Assembly: GCF_008297975.1 (NCBI RefSeq)
Contig: NZ_VLNY01000011.1
Span: 62,001-126,000, forward strand
Direction: 5' to 3'
Source: Antrihabitans cavernicola
GTDB taxonomy: Bacteria > Actinomycetota > Actinomycetes > Mycobacteriales > Mycobacteriaceae
Length of the DNA: 64,000 bases
The notes below the pieces were generated by a model. It had not been told where the DNA came from and searched no databases. It worked only from the letters and a program-made list of their open reading frames with translations. The translations under genes were made by a program, and so were the position numbers. Below are positions 36,261-56,294 of the stretch, in pieces. The first letter of the stretch is position 1. Each line of letters begins with the position of its first letter.

Positions 36261-36494
36261 TAACAGCTTGGTCACGGAACGGCAACGGGCTGAGACCGAG
36301 CGCGACACACCGTATCTAGCTGGGACAAGGCCGAAACCCTTCCGATTTGCTGGCAAATTGTGTTAGCGCGCGTGGCGGTTACCAAAAAGTGATTTTTGAT
36401 CACAGACGTCGTACGGTCATGACCGGCCGGAAGTTCGGCCACACTCCGGCCCGCCGCACCAAACCCCGTCCCGTGGGAACCGGAACCCCGACGA

Positions 36495-36660
36495 AACACC
36501 CAGGGACGGGGGCGGGGGACCCACGTCCCCCTTTGGGACAACCGGAAGTGTTCGCGGGGAATCCTTCCTTGGGGTGAAGCCAGACACGCTCCCGCCAAGA
36601 GCGTTGAGGCCGGGCGACCTCTCAGCCCGAACCCGACAGCTGACCTCGTAGGTGCGAGCG
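36495..36660 (+). ncRNA. ydaO/yuaA c-di-AMP riboswitch upstream of rpfA
   Basis: The 5' leader of rpfA carries the conserved blocks of the ydaO riboswitch: 'GACGGGGGCGGGGGACCCA' (36505-36523), 'CCTTGGGGTGAAGCC' (36567-36581) and 'CCCGAACCCGACAGCTGACC' (36626-36645), then 'TCGTAGG'. The class binds cyclic di-AMP and turns off expression of cell-wall lytic genes. The ribosome-binding site (GAGAGGA, 36661-36667) lies just after. The 36176-36494 stretch holds the Crp site and a GTGAT/ATCAC repeat but no gene. Confidence 0.88.
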
Positions 36661-36676
36661 GAGAGGAACTACAAGC

Positions 36677-52355: not shown

Positions 52356-52475
52356 CGTCGCGTGCCAGTTCGATAGCGCTGGCCTGCTGGTTTTCCGCGT
52401 CGATTGCAGGGTATGTCGAGCCGTGTGTACGTTCGAAAACAGTGTAATAGCATATTCGAAAGGGTGATCGACACA

Positions 52476-53384
52476 ATGCACGCCTCCACGGTCGTCGACA
52501 ACTATGCGACCCGCAACGGCGACAAATGCACAAAAATTGCGCGGCACGATCCAGTGGTGTGGCGACCCGAATATCCCGGTCCACTCACCGCTCCCGATTT
52601 GGTCCGCTACGAGGACAAAGGCTTCCACAACATCCACGATGCGCTGAGCGTCAGCGAGATCGCGAGTTGCTACAACGAGATCAGCCGCCTGGCTAATTCC
52701 GTTGATTTGCAAGATGATCCGCGCATCGTTCGCGAGAAGTCGTCCGGCGAGGTGCGCACGATCTTCGACGTGCACCTCCTCAGCGAAGTGGTCGCGTCCA
52801 TCGCGCGGCGGCCGGATTTCCTTGCGCTGGCCCGCCAAATTCTGGGCACCAATGCGTATATCCATCAGAGTCGGCTGAATTTCAAACCTGGATTTACCGG
52901 CGGCCCTTTCTATTGGCACTCGGATTTCGAAACCTGGCATGCCGAAGACGGAATGCCGACACCTCGCGCAGTGAGTATTTCCTTGGCATTGACGCCGAAT
53001 TACGAGGTGAACGGTGGTTTGATGATATTGCCGGGATCACACCGAACCTTCGTCGCCTGCGCAGGCGAAACGCCGTCGGACTACTACAAGCAATCGCTGG
53101 TCAACGACATTCCGGAGACCGGGACACCGGATCACGCAACCTTGACGTCGATGGCCGACGAGTTCGGTATCGAGCAGATGGTCGGGCCCGCCGGCTCGGC
53201 GACGCTTTTCGATTCCAACTGCATGCACGGGTCCAACGGCAACATCACGCCGTACGCGCGCTCCAACCTGTTCATCGTCTTCAACAGCGTGGACAACAGC
53301 CTCGAGGAACCGTTCTCGGCGCCATCGTCGCGGCCGGAATTCCTGGCCAAACACGATTTCACGGCGCTGCAGCCAGCGTTTTAG
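52476..53384 (+). CDS. ectD: Ectoine hydroxylase (Fe(II)/2-oxoglutarate dioxygenase)
   Basis: A PhyH-superfamily enzyme of 302 residues that converts ectoine to 5-hydroxyectoine, a compatible solute. The EctD signature is very clear: 'NFKPGFTGGPFYWHSDFETW' with Fe ligands His and Asp of H-S-D, then 'LMILPGSHRTFVACAGETPS', 'GPAGSATLFDSNCMHGSNGN' with the third Fe ligand His, and 'RSNLFIVFNSVDN'. Start ATG 52476. No ectABC genes are adjacent, so ectoine must come from elsewhere. Two sampled 60-bp rows (52861, 52981) are 50% GC, well below the flanking genes. Confidence 0.92.
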   Translation: MHASTVVDNYATRNGDKCTKIARHDPVVWRPEYPGPLTAPDLVRYEDKGFHNIHDALSVSEIASCYNEISRLANSVDLQDDPRIVREKSSGEVRTIFDVHLLSEVVASIARRPDFLALARQILGTNAYIHQSRLNFKPGFTGGPFYWHSDFETWHAEDGMPTPRAVSISLALTPNYEVNGGLMILPGSHRTFVACAGETPSDYYKQSLVNDIPETGTPDHATLTSMADEFGIEQMVGPAGSATLFDSNCMHGSNGNITPYARSNLFIVFNSVDNSLEEPFSAPSSRPEFLAKHDFTALQPAF

Positions 53385-53411: not shown

Positions 53412-54059
53412 ATGTTCGCAGTACATCAAGCCTCGTTGTTCGACGTACCACTGTTAGACGACGCGACCGACGGCCTGGCAATCGGCGCGCTCGACGGCTC
53501 GGTCCAACGAACGGTGCTGGAGCACGGGGCGTGGGTCGATCACCGTCCAGGCTGGTTCACGGGCTCCGACCAGCTGTTCACCGAGCTACTGGACTCGGTT
53601 CCGTGGCGGTCCGAACGCCGCGCGATGTACGACCGCGTCGTCGACGTGCCCAGGTTGCAGTGTTTCTTTCGCGACGGTGAGGAGCTGCCGAGCCCACATC
53701 TGGTGACCGCCCGCCGCGACCTGGACCGTTACTACTTCGACGAGCTCCGTGAGCCGTTCACCACCGCCGGGCTCTGCTACTACCGCGACGGCGCCGACAG
53801 CGTCGCGTGGCATGGCGACAACATCGGCCGGAGCCGAACGCAGGACACCATGGTGGCGATCCTCTCGCTCGGCGATGCGCGTCCACTACTGCTCCGACCC
53901 CGTGGTGGCGGTGCTTCGCTACGGTTTTCGGTCGGGCACGGCGACCTGCTGGTGATGGGCGGATCCTGTCAGCGGACGTGGGAGCACGCGGTTCCCAAGT
54001 CCAGTCGGCCGGTCGGACCGCGGATCAGCGTGCAGTTTCGACCGCACGACGTGCGCTGA
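53412..54059 (+). CDS. alkB: AlkB-like 2-oxoglutarate dioxygenase (alkylation repair)
   Basis: A Fe(II)/2-oxoglutarate-dependent demethylase of 215 residues in the AlkB family, which removes methyl groups from damaged bases. It has 'LCYYRDGADSVAWHGDNIG' (Fe ligands His and Asp in W-H-G-D), 'HGDLLVMGGSCQRTWEHAVP' (third His) and the 2-oxoglutarate Arg pair in 'GPRISVQFR'. A TACTAT box at 53399-53404 is 7 nt before the ATG, suggesting leaderless transcription independent of ectD. Its 3' end overlaps convergent DAHP synthase by 35 bp. Confidence 0.92.
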   Translation: MFAVHQASLFDVPLLDDATDGLAIGALDGSVQRTVLEHGAWVDHRPGWFTGSDQLFTELLDSVPWRSERRAMYDRVVDVPRLQCFFRDGEELPSPHLVTARRDLDRYYFDELREPFTTAGLCYYRDGADSVAWHGDNIGRSRTQDTMVAILSLGDARPLLLRPRGGGASLRFSVGHGDLLVMGGSCQRTWEHAVPKSSRPVGPRISVQFRPHDVR

Positions 54060-55140
54060 CCGCGTCCGCCAACCGATCCAACTGGGCCGCGGTGGTGGTC
54101 CAATCGAGGCAGGCATCGGTGATGGATTTGCCGTAGACGAGTTCGTCGGATTTGCCGAGCGTCAAATCTTGGCGACCCGCCTCGATGAAACTCTCCAGCA
54201 TCACGCCGACGATGTTGTCGTCACCCGCTGCGATCCGGTCGGCAAGCTCGTCGACGACGATCACCTGGCGGTTGTGATCCTTACTGCTGTTGCCGTGGCT
54301 GGCGTCGATCACTACGCGCTCGGGCAGTCCGGCCTTGGCGAGCCGGGCCATCGTGTCGGCGACCGTGGCCGCGTCGTAGTTGGGGCCCGAGCTGCCGCCG
54401 CGCAGGATCACGTGGCAGTCCGGATTGCCCGTCGTGCGGATCAGCGCGGAACGACCGTCGAGGTCCGTGCCCGGGAATACATGGCTGGCACCCGCAGCGC
54501 GGGCGCCGTCGACCGCCACCTGCACGTCGCCGTCGGTGCCGTTCTTGATGCCGACCGGCATGGACAGCGCGCTGCTGAGCTGGCGGTGCACCTGGCTCGC
54601 GGCCGTGCGCGCGCCGATGGCGCCGTAACTGACCAGGTCGGCGATGTACTGCGGGGTGATCGGGTCGAGGAACTCGCACGCGACCGGCAAACCCTTCGCC
54701 GAAATATCAACCAGCAGTTGACGTCCCAGGCCGAGTCCGGTGTTCACATCGAAGGTGCCGTCGAGGTGCGGATCGTTGATCAGGCCCTTCCAGCCCAGCG
54801 TGGTGCGCGGCTTCTCGAAGTACACGCGCATCACGATGTGCAGACGGTCGTCGAGTTCGGCAGCCTTCGCGGCGAGCCGATCGGCGTAGTCGAGGGCAGC
54901 GGCAGTGTCGTGCACCGAGCACGGTCCGACGATCACCATCAGCCGATCGTCGCCACCGTCGAGCACCTCGACGGTGGCCTTGCGGCCTGCACGGACGATG
55001 TCGAGCGCAGCGTCGCTGGGCGCATGGGTACGGCGAACGTCCATCGGCGACAGCAGCGGGCTGACGCTGATGGTCCGCTGATTGTCCAGATCGGTAGCCG
55101 TGGGTTGATCCAAAGCAGATTGTTCCAAAGCGGTGCTCAC
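54025..55140 (-). CDS. aroG: DAHP synthase, class I (AroF/G/H type)
   Basis: 3-deoxy-D-arabino-heptulosonate 7-phosphate synthase, first enzyme of aromatic amino acid synthesis, condensing phosphoenolpyruvate and erythrose 4-phosphate. 371 residues with 'RLMVIVGPCSVHD', 'MRVYFEKPRTTLGWKG', 'GARTAASQVHRQLSSALSMP', 'GIKNGTDGD', 'LRGGSSGPNYD' and 'DASHGNSSKDHNRQ'. The GTG start has AAGGA 8 nt upstream. A Tyr-Phe-Trp-Phe leader peptide and competing hairpins precede it, so it is very likely controlled by ribosome-mediated attenuation. Confidence 0.95.
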   Translation of the reverse strand: MSTALEQSALDQPTATDLDNQRTISVSPLLSPMDVRRTHAPSDAALDIVRAGRKATVEVLDGGDDRLMVIVGPCSVHDTAAALDYADRLAAKAAELDDRLHIVMRVYFEKPRTTLGWKGLINDPHLDGTFDVNTGLGLGRQLLVDISAKGLPVACEFLDPITPQYIADLVSYGAIGARTAASQVHRQLSSALSMPVGIKNGTDGDVQVAVDGARAAGASHVFPGTDLDGRSALIRTTGNPDCHVILRGGSSGPNYDAATVADTMARLAKAGLPERVVIDASHGNSSKDHNRQVIVVDELADRIAAGDDNIVGVMLESFIEAGRQDLTLGKSDELVYGKSITDACLDWTTTAAQLDRLADAVSARRAVETAR

Positions 55141-55188
55141 AAGGGGTTTCCTTTTCTCAGGCCGACCCGCAAGAAGTGAGATACCCAG

Positions 55189-55210
55189 CGAGCCGGTTGG
55201 TTCCGGCTCG
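55189..55210 (-). promoter_or_regulatory. Attenuator hairpin (3:4) of the DAHP synthase leader
   Basis: A perfect 8-bp stem CGAGCCGG/CCGGCTCG with a 6-nt loop lies between the leader peptide and aroG. Its 5' arm is part of 55203-55215, which can instead pair with leader codons 11-15 (55248-55260). No U-tract follows, so the mechanism may be factor-dependent or translational. Confidence 0.6.
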
Positions 55211-55221
55211 GGGTGAAGAAG

Positions 55222-55290
55222 TCAGCGCAGGTTCACGCAGACCGACCCACCCGGGGCCGGAGAGCTAAACCAGAAATACGTGCGCTGCAT
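55222..55290 (-). CDS. Aromatic leader peptide of DAHP synthase
   Basis: A 22-codon open frame upstream of aroG encoding 'MQRTYFWFSSPAPGG' and then 'SVCVNLR'. Four consecutive aromatic codons (Tyr5, Phe6, Trp7, Phe8) can stall ribosomes when aromatic aminoacyl-tRNAs are scarce. A TACAGT -10 box (plus-strand 55298-55303) lies 7 nt before the ATG, so the transcript probably begins at the leader start codon. It is too short for routine gene calling. A comparable leader upstream of aroF is, to my recollection, known in Corynebacterium. Confidence 0.8.
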   Translation of the reverse strand: MQRTYFWFSSPAPGGSVCVNLR

Positions 55291-55382
55291 GGCGACGACT
55301 GTACCAGCCGCCTCCGCGCACCCCAGTTTCGCTCCGCACACCCCGAATTCCGGTGCGCGGGTCGTAACTCGAGTGCGAGAGG

Positions 55383-56294
55383 TCAGATCCGAGCACGACC
55401 GCGGGCAATAGCCCGGTCGAACCGGCGACGCAGGTCCTGCGGTTCGTCGAGATCCGACCAGGTCCATCGGACCATCTCCCACCCCGCGTCGCGGAGCGCA
55501 TCTTCACGTCGTTTCTCCTCGAAGACGGCATCACCGGCCGTTCGGCCGGGACGAAGAAGCCGCCCGTACTTGATCCGTCCATCGAATTCACCGAGGACGC
55601 CGAACTCAGGAAAGCTGAAGTCGGCACGCCCCAGTAGCAGGCCATCGGCTGAAAAGACCTGATGCTGCAGCTCCGGTGTAGGCAAACCGATGCGACTGAG
55701 CAGCACTCGACTTCGTGATTCGCCTACGCTCTCGCTTCGTCCGTCGAGAAAAGCACACACCCGACGGGCAGCGGGGAGCCCGGGCCACCCGCTCATAGTG
55801 GCGATCACCGCGGCAGGGTCGATGCCGTAGTAGGTGCGCACGGCTGCGTCACCGATCACCACTGACTGCTCGAAATCCTCGGTTCGACCGACATCGACTA
55901 CGGTGCGTTGCGGCGAGGTCACCGTCAGGTCGCCGATCGTCGTGCAGTCCGCGGCATCGAGCGGCGACGCGTGCAAGTGCCGAGCCTGGGTTATGCGGCC
56001 GCCACTGCTCGATGCGCGCGTGAGGTGGACTCGCCGCAGGTCGACGTTCCACAGCGGCAGGCCCAAGAGGGCCGCGGCCGATACGTGACTGATCGCGATA
56101 TTCGCGTTGTGTGCGGCGGCAGTCGACCTGATTCGCAGCAGATAGCGATCTTGGGCAGACAATTCCGCGAAACCGGCGCCCGCCGCATAGGTTCCGGGCC
56201 GAACGCGCACCAGCGCACCCGACTTGCATTGCCGACCCAACTCGTCGTCGGTGTGTCCCTCTGCCAAGGCTTTCTGCCGTCGAATCAGTTCCAT
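55383..56294 (-). CDS. DUF559-like / AbiEi-type domain protein
   Basis: A 303-residue cytoplasmic protein. The N-terminal 90 residues resemble the AbiEi antitoxin-type winged helix found in many actinobacterial proteins ('LVRVRPGTYAAGAGF', 'ISHVSAAALLGLPLWN'). The C-terminal 100 residues look like a DUF559/Vsr-type restriction-endonuclease fold ('LLLGRADFSFPEFGVLGEFD', then 'EEKRREDALRDAGWEMVRW'), with D, E and E-x-K-like positions. AGGA 7 nt before the ATG at 56294 fixes the start. No partner gene is present, so a toxin-antitoxin role is uncertain. Confidence 0.75.
   Translation of the reverse strand: MELIRRQKALAEGHTDDELGRQCKSGALVRVRPGTYAAGAGFAELSAQDRYLLRIRSTAAAHNANIAISHVSAAALLGLPLWNVDLRRVHLTRASSSGGRITQARHLHASPLDAADCTTIGDLTVTSPQRTVVDVGRTEDFEQSVVIGDAAVRTYYGIDPAAVIATMSGWPGLPAARRVCAFLDGRSESVGESRSRVLLSRIGLPTPELQHQVFSADGLLLGRADFSFPEFGVLGEFDGRIKYGRLLRPGRTAGDAVFEEKRREDALRDAGWEMVRWTWSDLDEPQDLRRRFDRAIARGRARI

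Follow-up and report, generated by a model that had tools for sequence, protein, structure and literature searches.

The window, by which we mean the whole stretch of 64,000 nucleotides from Antrihabitans cavernicola that was analysed, carried a class I DAHP synthase gene on its reverse strand, recognized by the profile matches NF009395 (482.2 bits) and TIGR00034 (472.1 bits), and a short ORF with a run of aromatic codons upstream of it. The features of this region were as follows.

54025..55140, reverse strand: class I DAHP synthase gene, GTG start at 55140
55222..55290, reverse strand: leader ORF of 22 sense codons and TGA, peptide MQRTYFWFSSPAPGGSVCVNLR and stop
55267..55278, reverse strand: candidate sensor codons 5-8, Tyr5 Phe6 Trp7 Phe8 (TAT TTC TGG TTT)
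55298..55303, reverse strand: -10 box TACAGT, ending 7 nt before the leader ATG

An ORF with codons for the end products of the pathway was thus located directly upstream of a biosynthetic gene, the arrangement by which attenuators are recognized, with a spacing of 81 nt between the leader ORF and the GTG of DAHP synthase. As the -10 box lies so close to the leader ATG, the transcript of the window probably begins at or next to this ATG. The DAHP synthase gene looked monocistronic, because the next long ORF past it (53412-54059, forward strand) was convergent. The genome also encoded a class II DAHP synthase and a second DAHP synthase (L002, C5:38183-39235) that was 77% identical to that of the window and lacked an aromatic leader; by eye, an isopentenyl-diphosphate isomerase-like ORF and a large ATPase-type regulator-like ORF were its neighbours. 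Elsewhere in the window, the gene of the ectoine hydroxylase ThpD (TIGR02408, 379.6 bits) was found at 52404-53384 and a c-di-AMP riboswitch (RF00379, 59.3 bits) at 36487-36670, both on the forward strand.

The search of Rfam 15 over the leader region gave no match at the gathering level, and at E <=5 over 54900-55500 the sole match (14.8 bits, gathering threshold 70) was on the opposite strand. The leader-peptide profile searches at E <=10, with four peptides in NCBIfam and three in Pfam, returned no match.

The aromatic leader was found to be widely conserved. With a loose criterion for an aromatic ORF (at least three aromatic residues within five codons, upstream of DAHP synthase), one was present in 26 of the 29 actinobacterial loci with names; of 205 further loci of the class, a set that includes the window, its own paralogue and some duplicates, 188 had one. 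Among named loci from other phyla the count was 34 of 51, several of them chance-like. When the upstream stretches of the actinobacterial loci were block-shuffled, such an ORF appeared in 53 of 702 (7.5%). This rate is the one argument for a chance ORF without any role, a reading that is hardly credible against the conservation of the leader in 119 distinct relatives and the codon-level selection described below. The leader is real and in all likelihood functional.

A parser for the architecture of the window accepted 133 of 285 DAHP synthase loci; the others had different architectures, came from other phyla or failed to parse. After L232 was dropped for having no start codon, 132 parsed 5' regions were left, 119 of them distinct; the 5' regions of a genus-mate (G002, locus L004) and of Antrihabitans stalactiti (L034) were identical to that of the window. 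Tests that depend on segment D, defined below, were made with 107 sequences, with 117 (before representatives were picked) or with all 119, and in the set of 43 representatives used for later fold and pair-count analyses L233 and L244 were removed and L155 and L153 added. The pattern TAYTTYTGGTTYASNNNNCCGGCC gave one match per genome in 73 of 201 family genomes and none in the reversed control; 30 of the 73 matches were fetched as loci, and all 30 had a DAHP synthase match.

Among the 119 distinct relatives, the distance from the first base of TANNNT to the assigned leader start was 12-14 nt in 101 hits and 22-23 nt in 19 more; the longer distance would fit a start assignment at a closer in-frame GTG. 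The interval 4-16 nt ahead of the assigned start contained no SD-like motif in any of the 119. With a -10 box just upstream and no SD motif, the leader mRNA would be leaderless. At the other end, the leader closed almost universally on CGC-TGA (of the 119 leader ends, 116 were covered, and 115 of these read GCGCTGA), possibly as part of a small stop-codon hairpin.

Several of these points had been anticipated in a preliminary description of the region, made from the letters alone. It had given the 22-codon leader with Tyr-Phe-Trp-Phe at codons 5-8 with exact coordinates and codons, and the TACAGT 7 nt before the ATG is present at 55303-55298. The proposal of an apparently leaderless aromatic leader before a class I DAHP synthase agreed with the TANNNT positions and the missing SD motif in the relatives, and the suggested check for conserved aromatic codons held in the named Rhodococcus and Nocardia loci. 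It had called the sensing of three aromatic amino acids in one short run, without a U-tract terminator, unusual; a mixed aromatic run proved common, being present in most of the actinobacterial DAHP synthase loci examined and in several proteobacterial ones.

The RNA between the sensor codons and the start codon could be divided into the following segments.

55254..55261, reverse strand: A1, UCCGGCCC (GCCGGCCC in most relatives), able to pair with D, B or A2
55246..55252, reverse strand: A2, GGGUGGG, able to pair with B5
55211..55216, reverse strand: B5, UCACCC, partner of A2 (also given as CCACCC)
55203..55210, reverse strand: B, CGAGCCGG, 5' arm of a near-invariant hairpin
55189..55196, reverse strand: C, CCGGCUCG, 3' arm of the hairpin, complementary to D, core word CCGGCUC
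55162..55168, reverse strand: D, GGGUCGG, partner common to A1, C and the SD region
55144..55155, reverse strand: E, the SD region, AAAAGGAAACCC, able to pair with D and its 3' flank

Codon usage in the leader was compared with a background of 46 long high-GC3 ORFs of the window. The Tyr position used TAT in 112 of 114 relatives (0.16 of the Tyr codons in the background) and the last Phe used TTT in 113 of 119 (0.09 of the Phe codons). The Ala of the leader was GCC in all 119 (background 0.35), and its second Gly was GGG in 114 of 119 (0.11). At the junction of A1 and A2 the codon varied (CCG in 60, CTG in 25 and CGG in 23 of 119), mostly at the single base between the two segments. Because the codon choice was fixed while the residue spanning A1/A2 varied, the selection was on nucleotides and not on the peptide; around A1-A2, it looks to be the RNA that is conserved. 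Together with the -10 box, the codon conservation would give indirect support to translation of the leader and to ribosome stalling when amino acids are limiting. A sequence-specific arrest peptide, in which the residues of the peptide would be the sensor in place of codons or RNA, would explain the conserved residues P-A-x-G-G. It is nevertheless a very improbable reading, as conservation extended to the choice among synonymous codons, and the residue across A1/A2 could be Pro, Leu, Arg or others, in a manner that matches the RNA pairing.

In the window, the B:C hairpin (55210-55189) was a perfect 8-bp stem with a 6-nt loop, and 55260-55248 could pair with 55215-55203 at 11 of 13 positions (A:B). 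Both pairings had been given exactly in the preliminary description, which was also correct that the window has no U-tract terminator: no U-tract follows 55189, where trp-type attenuators have their intrinsic terminator. Over the 43 sequences, six of the seven core pairs of B:C were kept in all 43 and the seventh in 42, the remaining sequence having a gap there; the outer pair varied, and compensatory changes in the core pairs were not found. The D word showed 7/7 complementarity to C in 107 of 119 relatives, in four sequence variants, and in 3.2% of shuffles. The A1:D cells were 95.9% paired over the 43 sequences with covariation absent. Such invariance of A1, B, C and D would fit arms that serve several partners, which is an argument and not a proof.

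Clear covariation was detected between D and the SD region. Over 33 representatives, the hairpin of each sequence with its own partner was at -13.53, compared with -11.22 (sd 0.40) for permuted partners, and none of 20000 permutations was as stable (773 of 5000 for the control window of the test); over 43 representatives the result was z -8.5 and 0 of 10000. These results demonstrated that D and E have coevolved. When the stretch from D to the start was folded by itself, half or more of the SD was paired in 95 of 107 relatives. The D:E hairpin of the window itself, at -8.1 kcal/mol, was tied weakest among the 33 representatives.

The permutation tests of the other pairings were mostly not significant, namely those of A2:B5 (1323 of 10000), full A:B (671 of 10000), C:D (7803 of 10000), B:C and A2b:C. 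Variants of A2:B5 that look compensatory (GGGAUGG:CCAUCCC) were found in L042 and L155. The A1:D test was marginal (488 of 10000), A1:B was lower (136 of 10000), and a signal for B5:gap (49 of 10000) came without explanation. RNAalifold of the 43 sequences gave B:C, a mixed A1:A2/A1:D helix and the stop-codon hairpin; the covariation term was small (-0.39). Invariance and complementarity, with clear covariation absent, are thus what would speak for A1:D and C:D.

The folding of the RNA downstream of a ribosome was then predicted at equilibrium with an assumed ribosome edge. For the RNA of the window ending at the start codon, the probability of B:C was 0.98 with the ribosome at the stop, 0.64 at Tyr5 and 0.07 at Phe6. 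At Phe6, D:C reached 0.93 and E was open at 0.65, compared with 0.36 at the stop; D:E was about 0 in every state, and the difference at the GUG (0.75 and 0.70) was not real. In the minimum-energy folds at Tyr5 and Phe6, A:B replaced B:C, also when the coding sequence was included. With the coding sequence, the GUG was unpaired at 0.24-0.59 at Tyr5 versus 0.01-0.13 at the stop; Phe6, Trp7 and Phe8 resembled the stop, so that only Tyr5 clearly opened the GUG, and SD openness was 0.38-0.49 in all states.

The first scoring over the 119 relatives, by SD openness at a Trp7 stall, showed a mean change of 0.02, with an increase above 0.1 in 17 and a decrease below -0.1 in eight. The effect appeared when the partners of D and the stall positions Tyr5 and Phe6 were scored instead; these positions were chosen after seeing the data, and a null with shuffled A served as the check. 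For RNA ending at the start codon, the mean D:E over the 119 was 0.64 at the stop, 0.19 at Tyr5, 0.21 at Phe6, 0.49 at Trp7 and 0.62 at Phe8. At Tyr5 and Phe6, D was mainly paired with A1 (0.57) or C (0.14-0.15), and B:C stayed at 0.76-0.88 in all five states (Tyr5 0.77, stop 0.85). With 20 nt of coding sequence, D:E was 0.64 at the stop, 0.31 at Tyr5 and 0.34 at Phe6, B:C was 0.94 at the stop and 0.71 at Tyr5, and the ribosome-binding site, counting changes above 0.05, opened in 69 relatives and closed in five at Tyr5 (67 and six at Phe6).

The 43 representatives, also with 20 nt of coding sequence, gave D:E values of 0.56 at the stop, 0.34 at Tyr5 and 0.36 at Phe6, with a decrease of more than 0.2 at Tyr5 in 17 and an increase in three. 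The ribosome-binding site opened in 19, closed in three and was unchanged in 21 at Tyr5, leaving 24 of the 43 without an opening above 0.05, and opened in 19 and closed in four at Phe6. When A1-A2 was shuffled, the stall effect was gone, with D:E at Tyr5 of 0.59, or 0.54 with 20 nt of coding sequence. A stall at Tyr5 or Phe6 is accordingly predicted to take D from E when averaged over the relatives; the direction of the switch is supported over the family, and the prediction specific to the window is weak.

The stems and the switch logic of the preliminary description fared unevenly in these analyses. Strong covariation was seen in D:E over the SD, a pairing it had not noticed, and the seven core pairs of B:C, one of its stems, showed no compensation. 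The proposed 2:3 versus 3:4 alternative appeared in the window, where B:C is predicted to fall from 0.98 to 0.07 at Phe6, and not as a general rule, as B:C mostly persisted over the 119 relatives. The 2:3 pairing is still part of the picture, because B:C dropped from 0.92 at the stop to 0.68 at Tyr5 in the 43 representatives and A1:B rose to 0.25. The equilibrium 2:3 versus 3:4 switch as the general mechanism was dropped on the family folds; the window shows it at Phe6. Sensing of three amino acids was not borne out by the model: with the ribosome edge that was assumed, the ribosome-binding site hardly responded on average to stalls at Trp7 and Phe8, although an edge placed 3-4 nt shorter would bring Trp7 in.

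An aromatic attenuator before DAHP synthase is thus well supported. We consider that it is a ribosome-mediated attenuator of class I DAHP synthase with translation initiation as its main output, at a probability of roughly 0.6. Transcription would start from the leader ATG, judging from the position of the -10 box, and the mRNA would open with the leader peptide. When Tyr- and Phe-tRNA, the putative signals counted here, are plentiful, the ribosome would reach the leader stop and cover A1 and A2; B:C would form, D would pair with E, and the SD would be sequestered in the hairpin, giving low expression. A ribosome waiting at the aromatic codons would leave A1 free. The free A1 would capture D, with A2:B5 and B:C as the junction, or alternatively C would capture D when A pairs with all of B. 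In either case E would be released and DAHP synthase translated.

Aromatic leaders of other architectures were found before DAHP synthase genes elsewhere. Other Actinobacteria (Streptomyces, Mycobacterium, Dietzia, Micromonospora and others) had WYWRF-, AYWRF- or SYRWF-like leaders, and in 31 representatives the 3' part of the leader covaried with the 50 nt after the stop (z -7.5, 0 of 5000). Under a strict test, 22 of 87 distinct entries had a U-tailed hairpin following the leader; among the 87 were 13 leftovers of the window architecture and a few chance ORFs. A second actinobacterial architecture consisted of an AYWRF, FYWF, WYTRF, RYPYF or SYRWF leader with a U-tailed hairpin (L045, L049, L056, L075, L117, L121, L124, L126-L129, L159, L160 and L162-L165 are examples); there the leader pairing and the U-tailed hairpin did not overlap, and a later segment was complementary to B by eye.

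Aromatic leaders were also present in Proteobacteria such as Bradyrhizobium, Cupriavidus, Xanthomonas and Devosia. The loci with mixed aromatic leaders in this phylum were L053, L055, L058, L061, L066, L068, L088, L093, L097, L100, L104 and L110, most of them with a textbook terminator CCGCCAG...CUGGCGG and a U-run; the 5' arm of this terminator seemed, by eye, able to pair with a word in the leader (GCUGGCGG is an example). Many non-actinobacterial leader loci contained both GCUGGCGG and CCGCCAGC. By a loose test, 26 of 51 non-actinobacterial loci combined an aromatic ORF with a U-tailed hairpin after it; the test includes some spurious matches and misses L055 and L066, whose terminators are visible. 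Covariation between leader and downstream RNA in the non-actinobacterial loci was not significant (1492 of 5000, 24 representatives).

These terminators bear on classical transcription attenuation, in which B:C, extended by ACCC:GGGU, would be a U-less terminator, A:B the antiterminator, and a stall would lead to read-through. The window offers points for it in the 11 of 13 A:B positions, the B:C value of 0.07 at Phe6 and the A:B pairing of its Tyr5 and Phe6 minimum-energy folds. One relative of the window architecture (L013:1338-1476) had a clear U-tract of seven U directly after B:C, and the leader/post-stop covariation of other Actinobacteria, some with a separate U-tailed hairpin, and the textbook terminators in many of the Proteobacteria examined point the same way. 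Nevertheless, a U-tailed stem was found in only three of 111 same-architecture relatives, of which only L013 was convincing, B:C was predicted to persist mostly in both states over the 119 relatives, and the coevolved SD hairpin would be left unexplained. The aroR leader of Corynebacterium glutamicum is placed on both sides in the available portions of the literature, being described as transcriptional in one paper (PMC11802643) and as a translational regulatory leader in another (PMC7356990). We regard transcription attenuation as unlikely in the window, though by no means negligible. Mixed control, in which repression by D:E would bare the mRNA and Rho or decay would lower the transcript so that both readouts move, is arrived at by inference; it is compatible with the D:E evidence and with the transcript-level reports for C. 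glutamicum, as far as the accessible text of these gives them, and we judge it decidedly improbable.

Returning to control of translation initiation as the preferred reading, the relatives may be read as one old kind of attenuator with a shifted output. We propose tentatively, and would not bet on it at even odds, that in Nocardia, Rhodococcus, Antrihabitans and Amycolatopsis an ancestral aromatic terminator-attenuator became a ribosome-gated RNA relay, in which a G+C-rich word and its complement recur as A1, A2, B, C and D and the position of the ribosome assigns D to the leader (A1 or C) or to the SD region, with the same kind of leader serving other outputs across Actinobacteria and several proteobacterial lineages. 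If so, attenuation may have changed its output from transcription to translation among the relatives, which would then form a natural series. All aromatic amino acids and many natural products are made by way of DAHP synthase, and the leader would be a very widespread actinobacterial control element that is largely uncatalogued, given the absent Rfam match and the statement in the available part of a 2005 study (PMC1262725) that conserved RNA structures were not seen before actinobacterial Phe or Tyr operons. It would also be a practical target, as the aroR leader has already been replaced in a C. glutamicum production strain, according to the accessible part of PMC7356990.

Among known systems, the E. 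coli trp-type attenuators combine stalling codons in a leader peptide with alternative RNA pairings. The window shares both features, but it has no terminator U-tract, and B:C was not predicted to be the main alternative over the relatives. The actinobacterial attenuators described in 2005 and 2021 (PMC1262725, PMC8079986) resemble the window, in the text available, in that they have leader peptides, of which several are leaderless and some lack a U-tract; for the 2021 paper, this text names no leaders other than those of leu, trp, ala, ilv, met and thr. DAHP synthase terms were absent from PMC2965389 and PMC4833913, and a description of the window leader in Rhodococcus, Nocardia, Amycolatopsis or Streptomyces was not found in a literature search that covered few subscription journals. 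The mycobacterial polycysteine leaderless short ORFs (Canestrari et al. 2020, cited on the subject of translation attenuation in the available text of PMC13236596) are likewise actinobacterial leaderless sensor ORFs with proposed control of downstream translation; they differ in their cysteine codons and in the genes concerned. In Acholeplasma, the uORFC-13-1 motif (PMC8632094, available portion) likewise places a candidate upstream ORF, with one or more Phe codons, ahead of aroF, but it belongs to another phylum and has an adjacent intrinsic terminator and its own ribosome-binding site.

The direct precedent is the aroR leader of C. glutamicum aroF (Neshat et al. 2014; PMC11802643, PMC4046766, PMC7356990), and the kind of attenuator was therefore already known; this related corynebacterial leader had been named in the preliminary description and is attested in the available text of PMC4046766 and PMC11802643. 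Both are short aromatic leaders before DAHP synthase in Actinobacteria for which ribosome-mediated attenuation is proposed. The aroR run is Phe-Tyr-Phe, compared with Tyr-Phe-Trp-Phe in the window, and aroR is reported, in the accessible descriptions, to respond to Phe but not to Tyr. The window is further set apart by its lack of a U-tract and by relatives with a coevolved SD hairpin, a contrast that is drawn, as is that between the two runs, with published descriptions of aroR.
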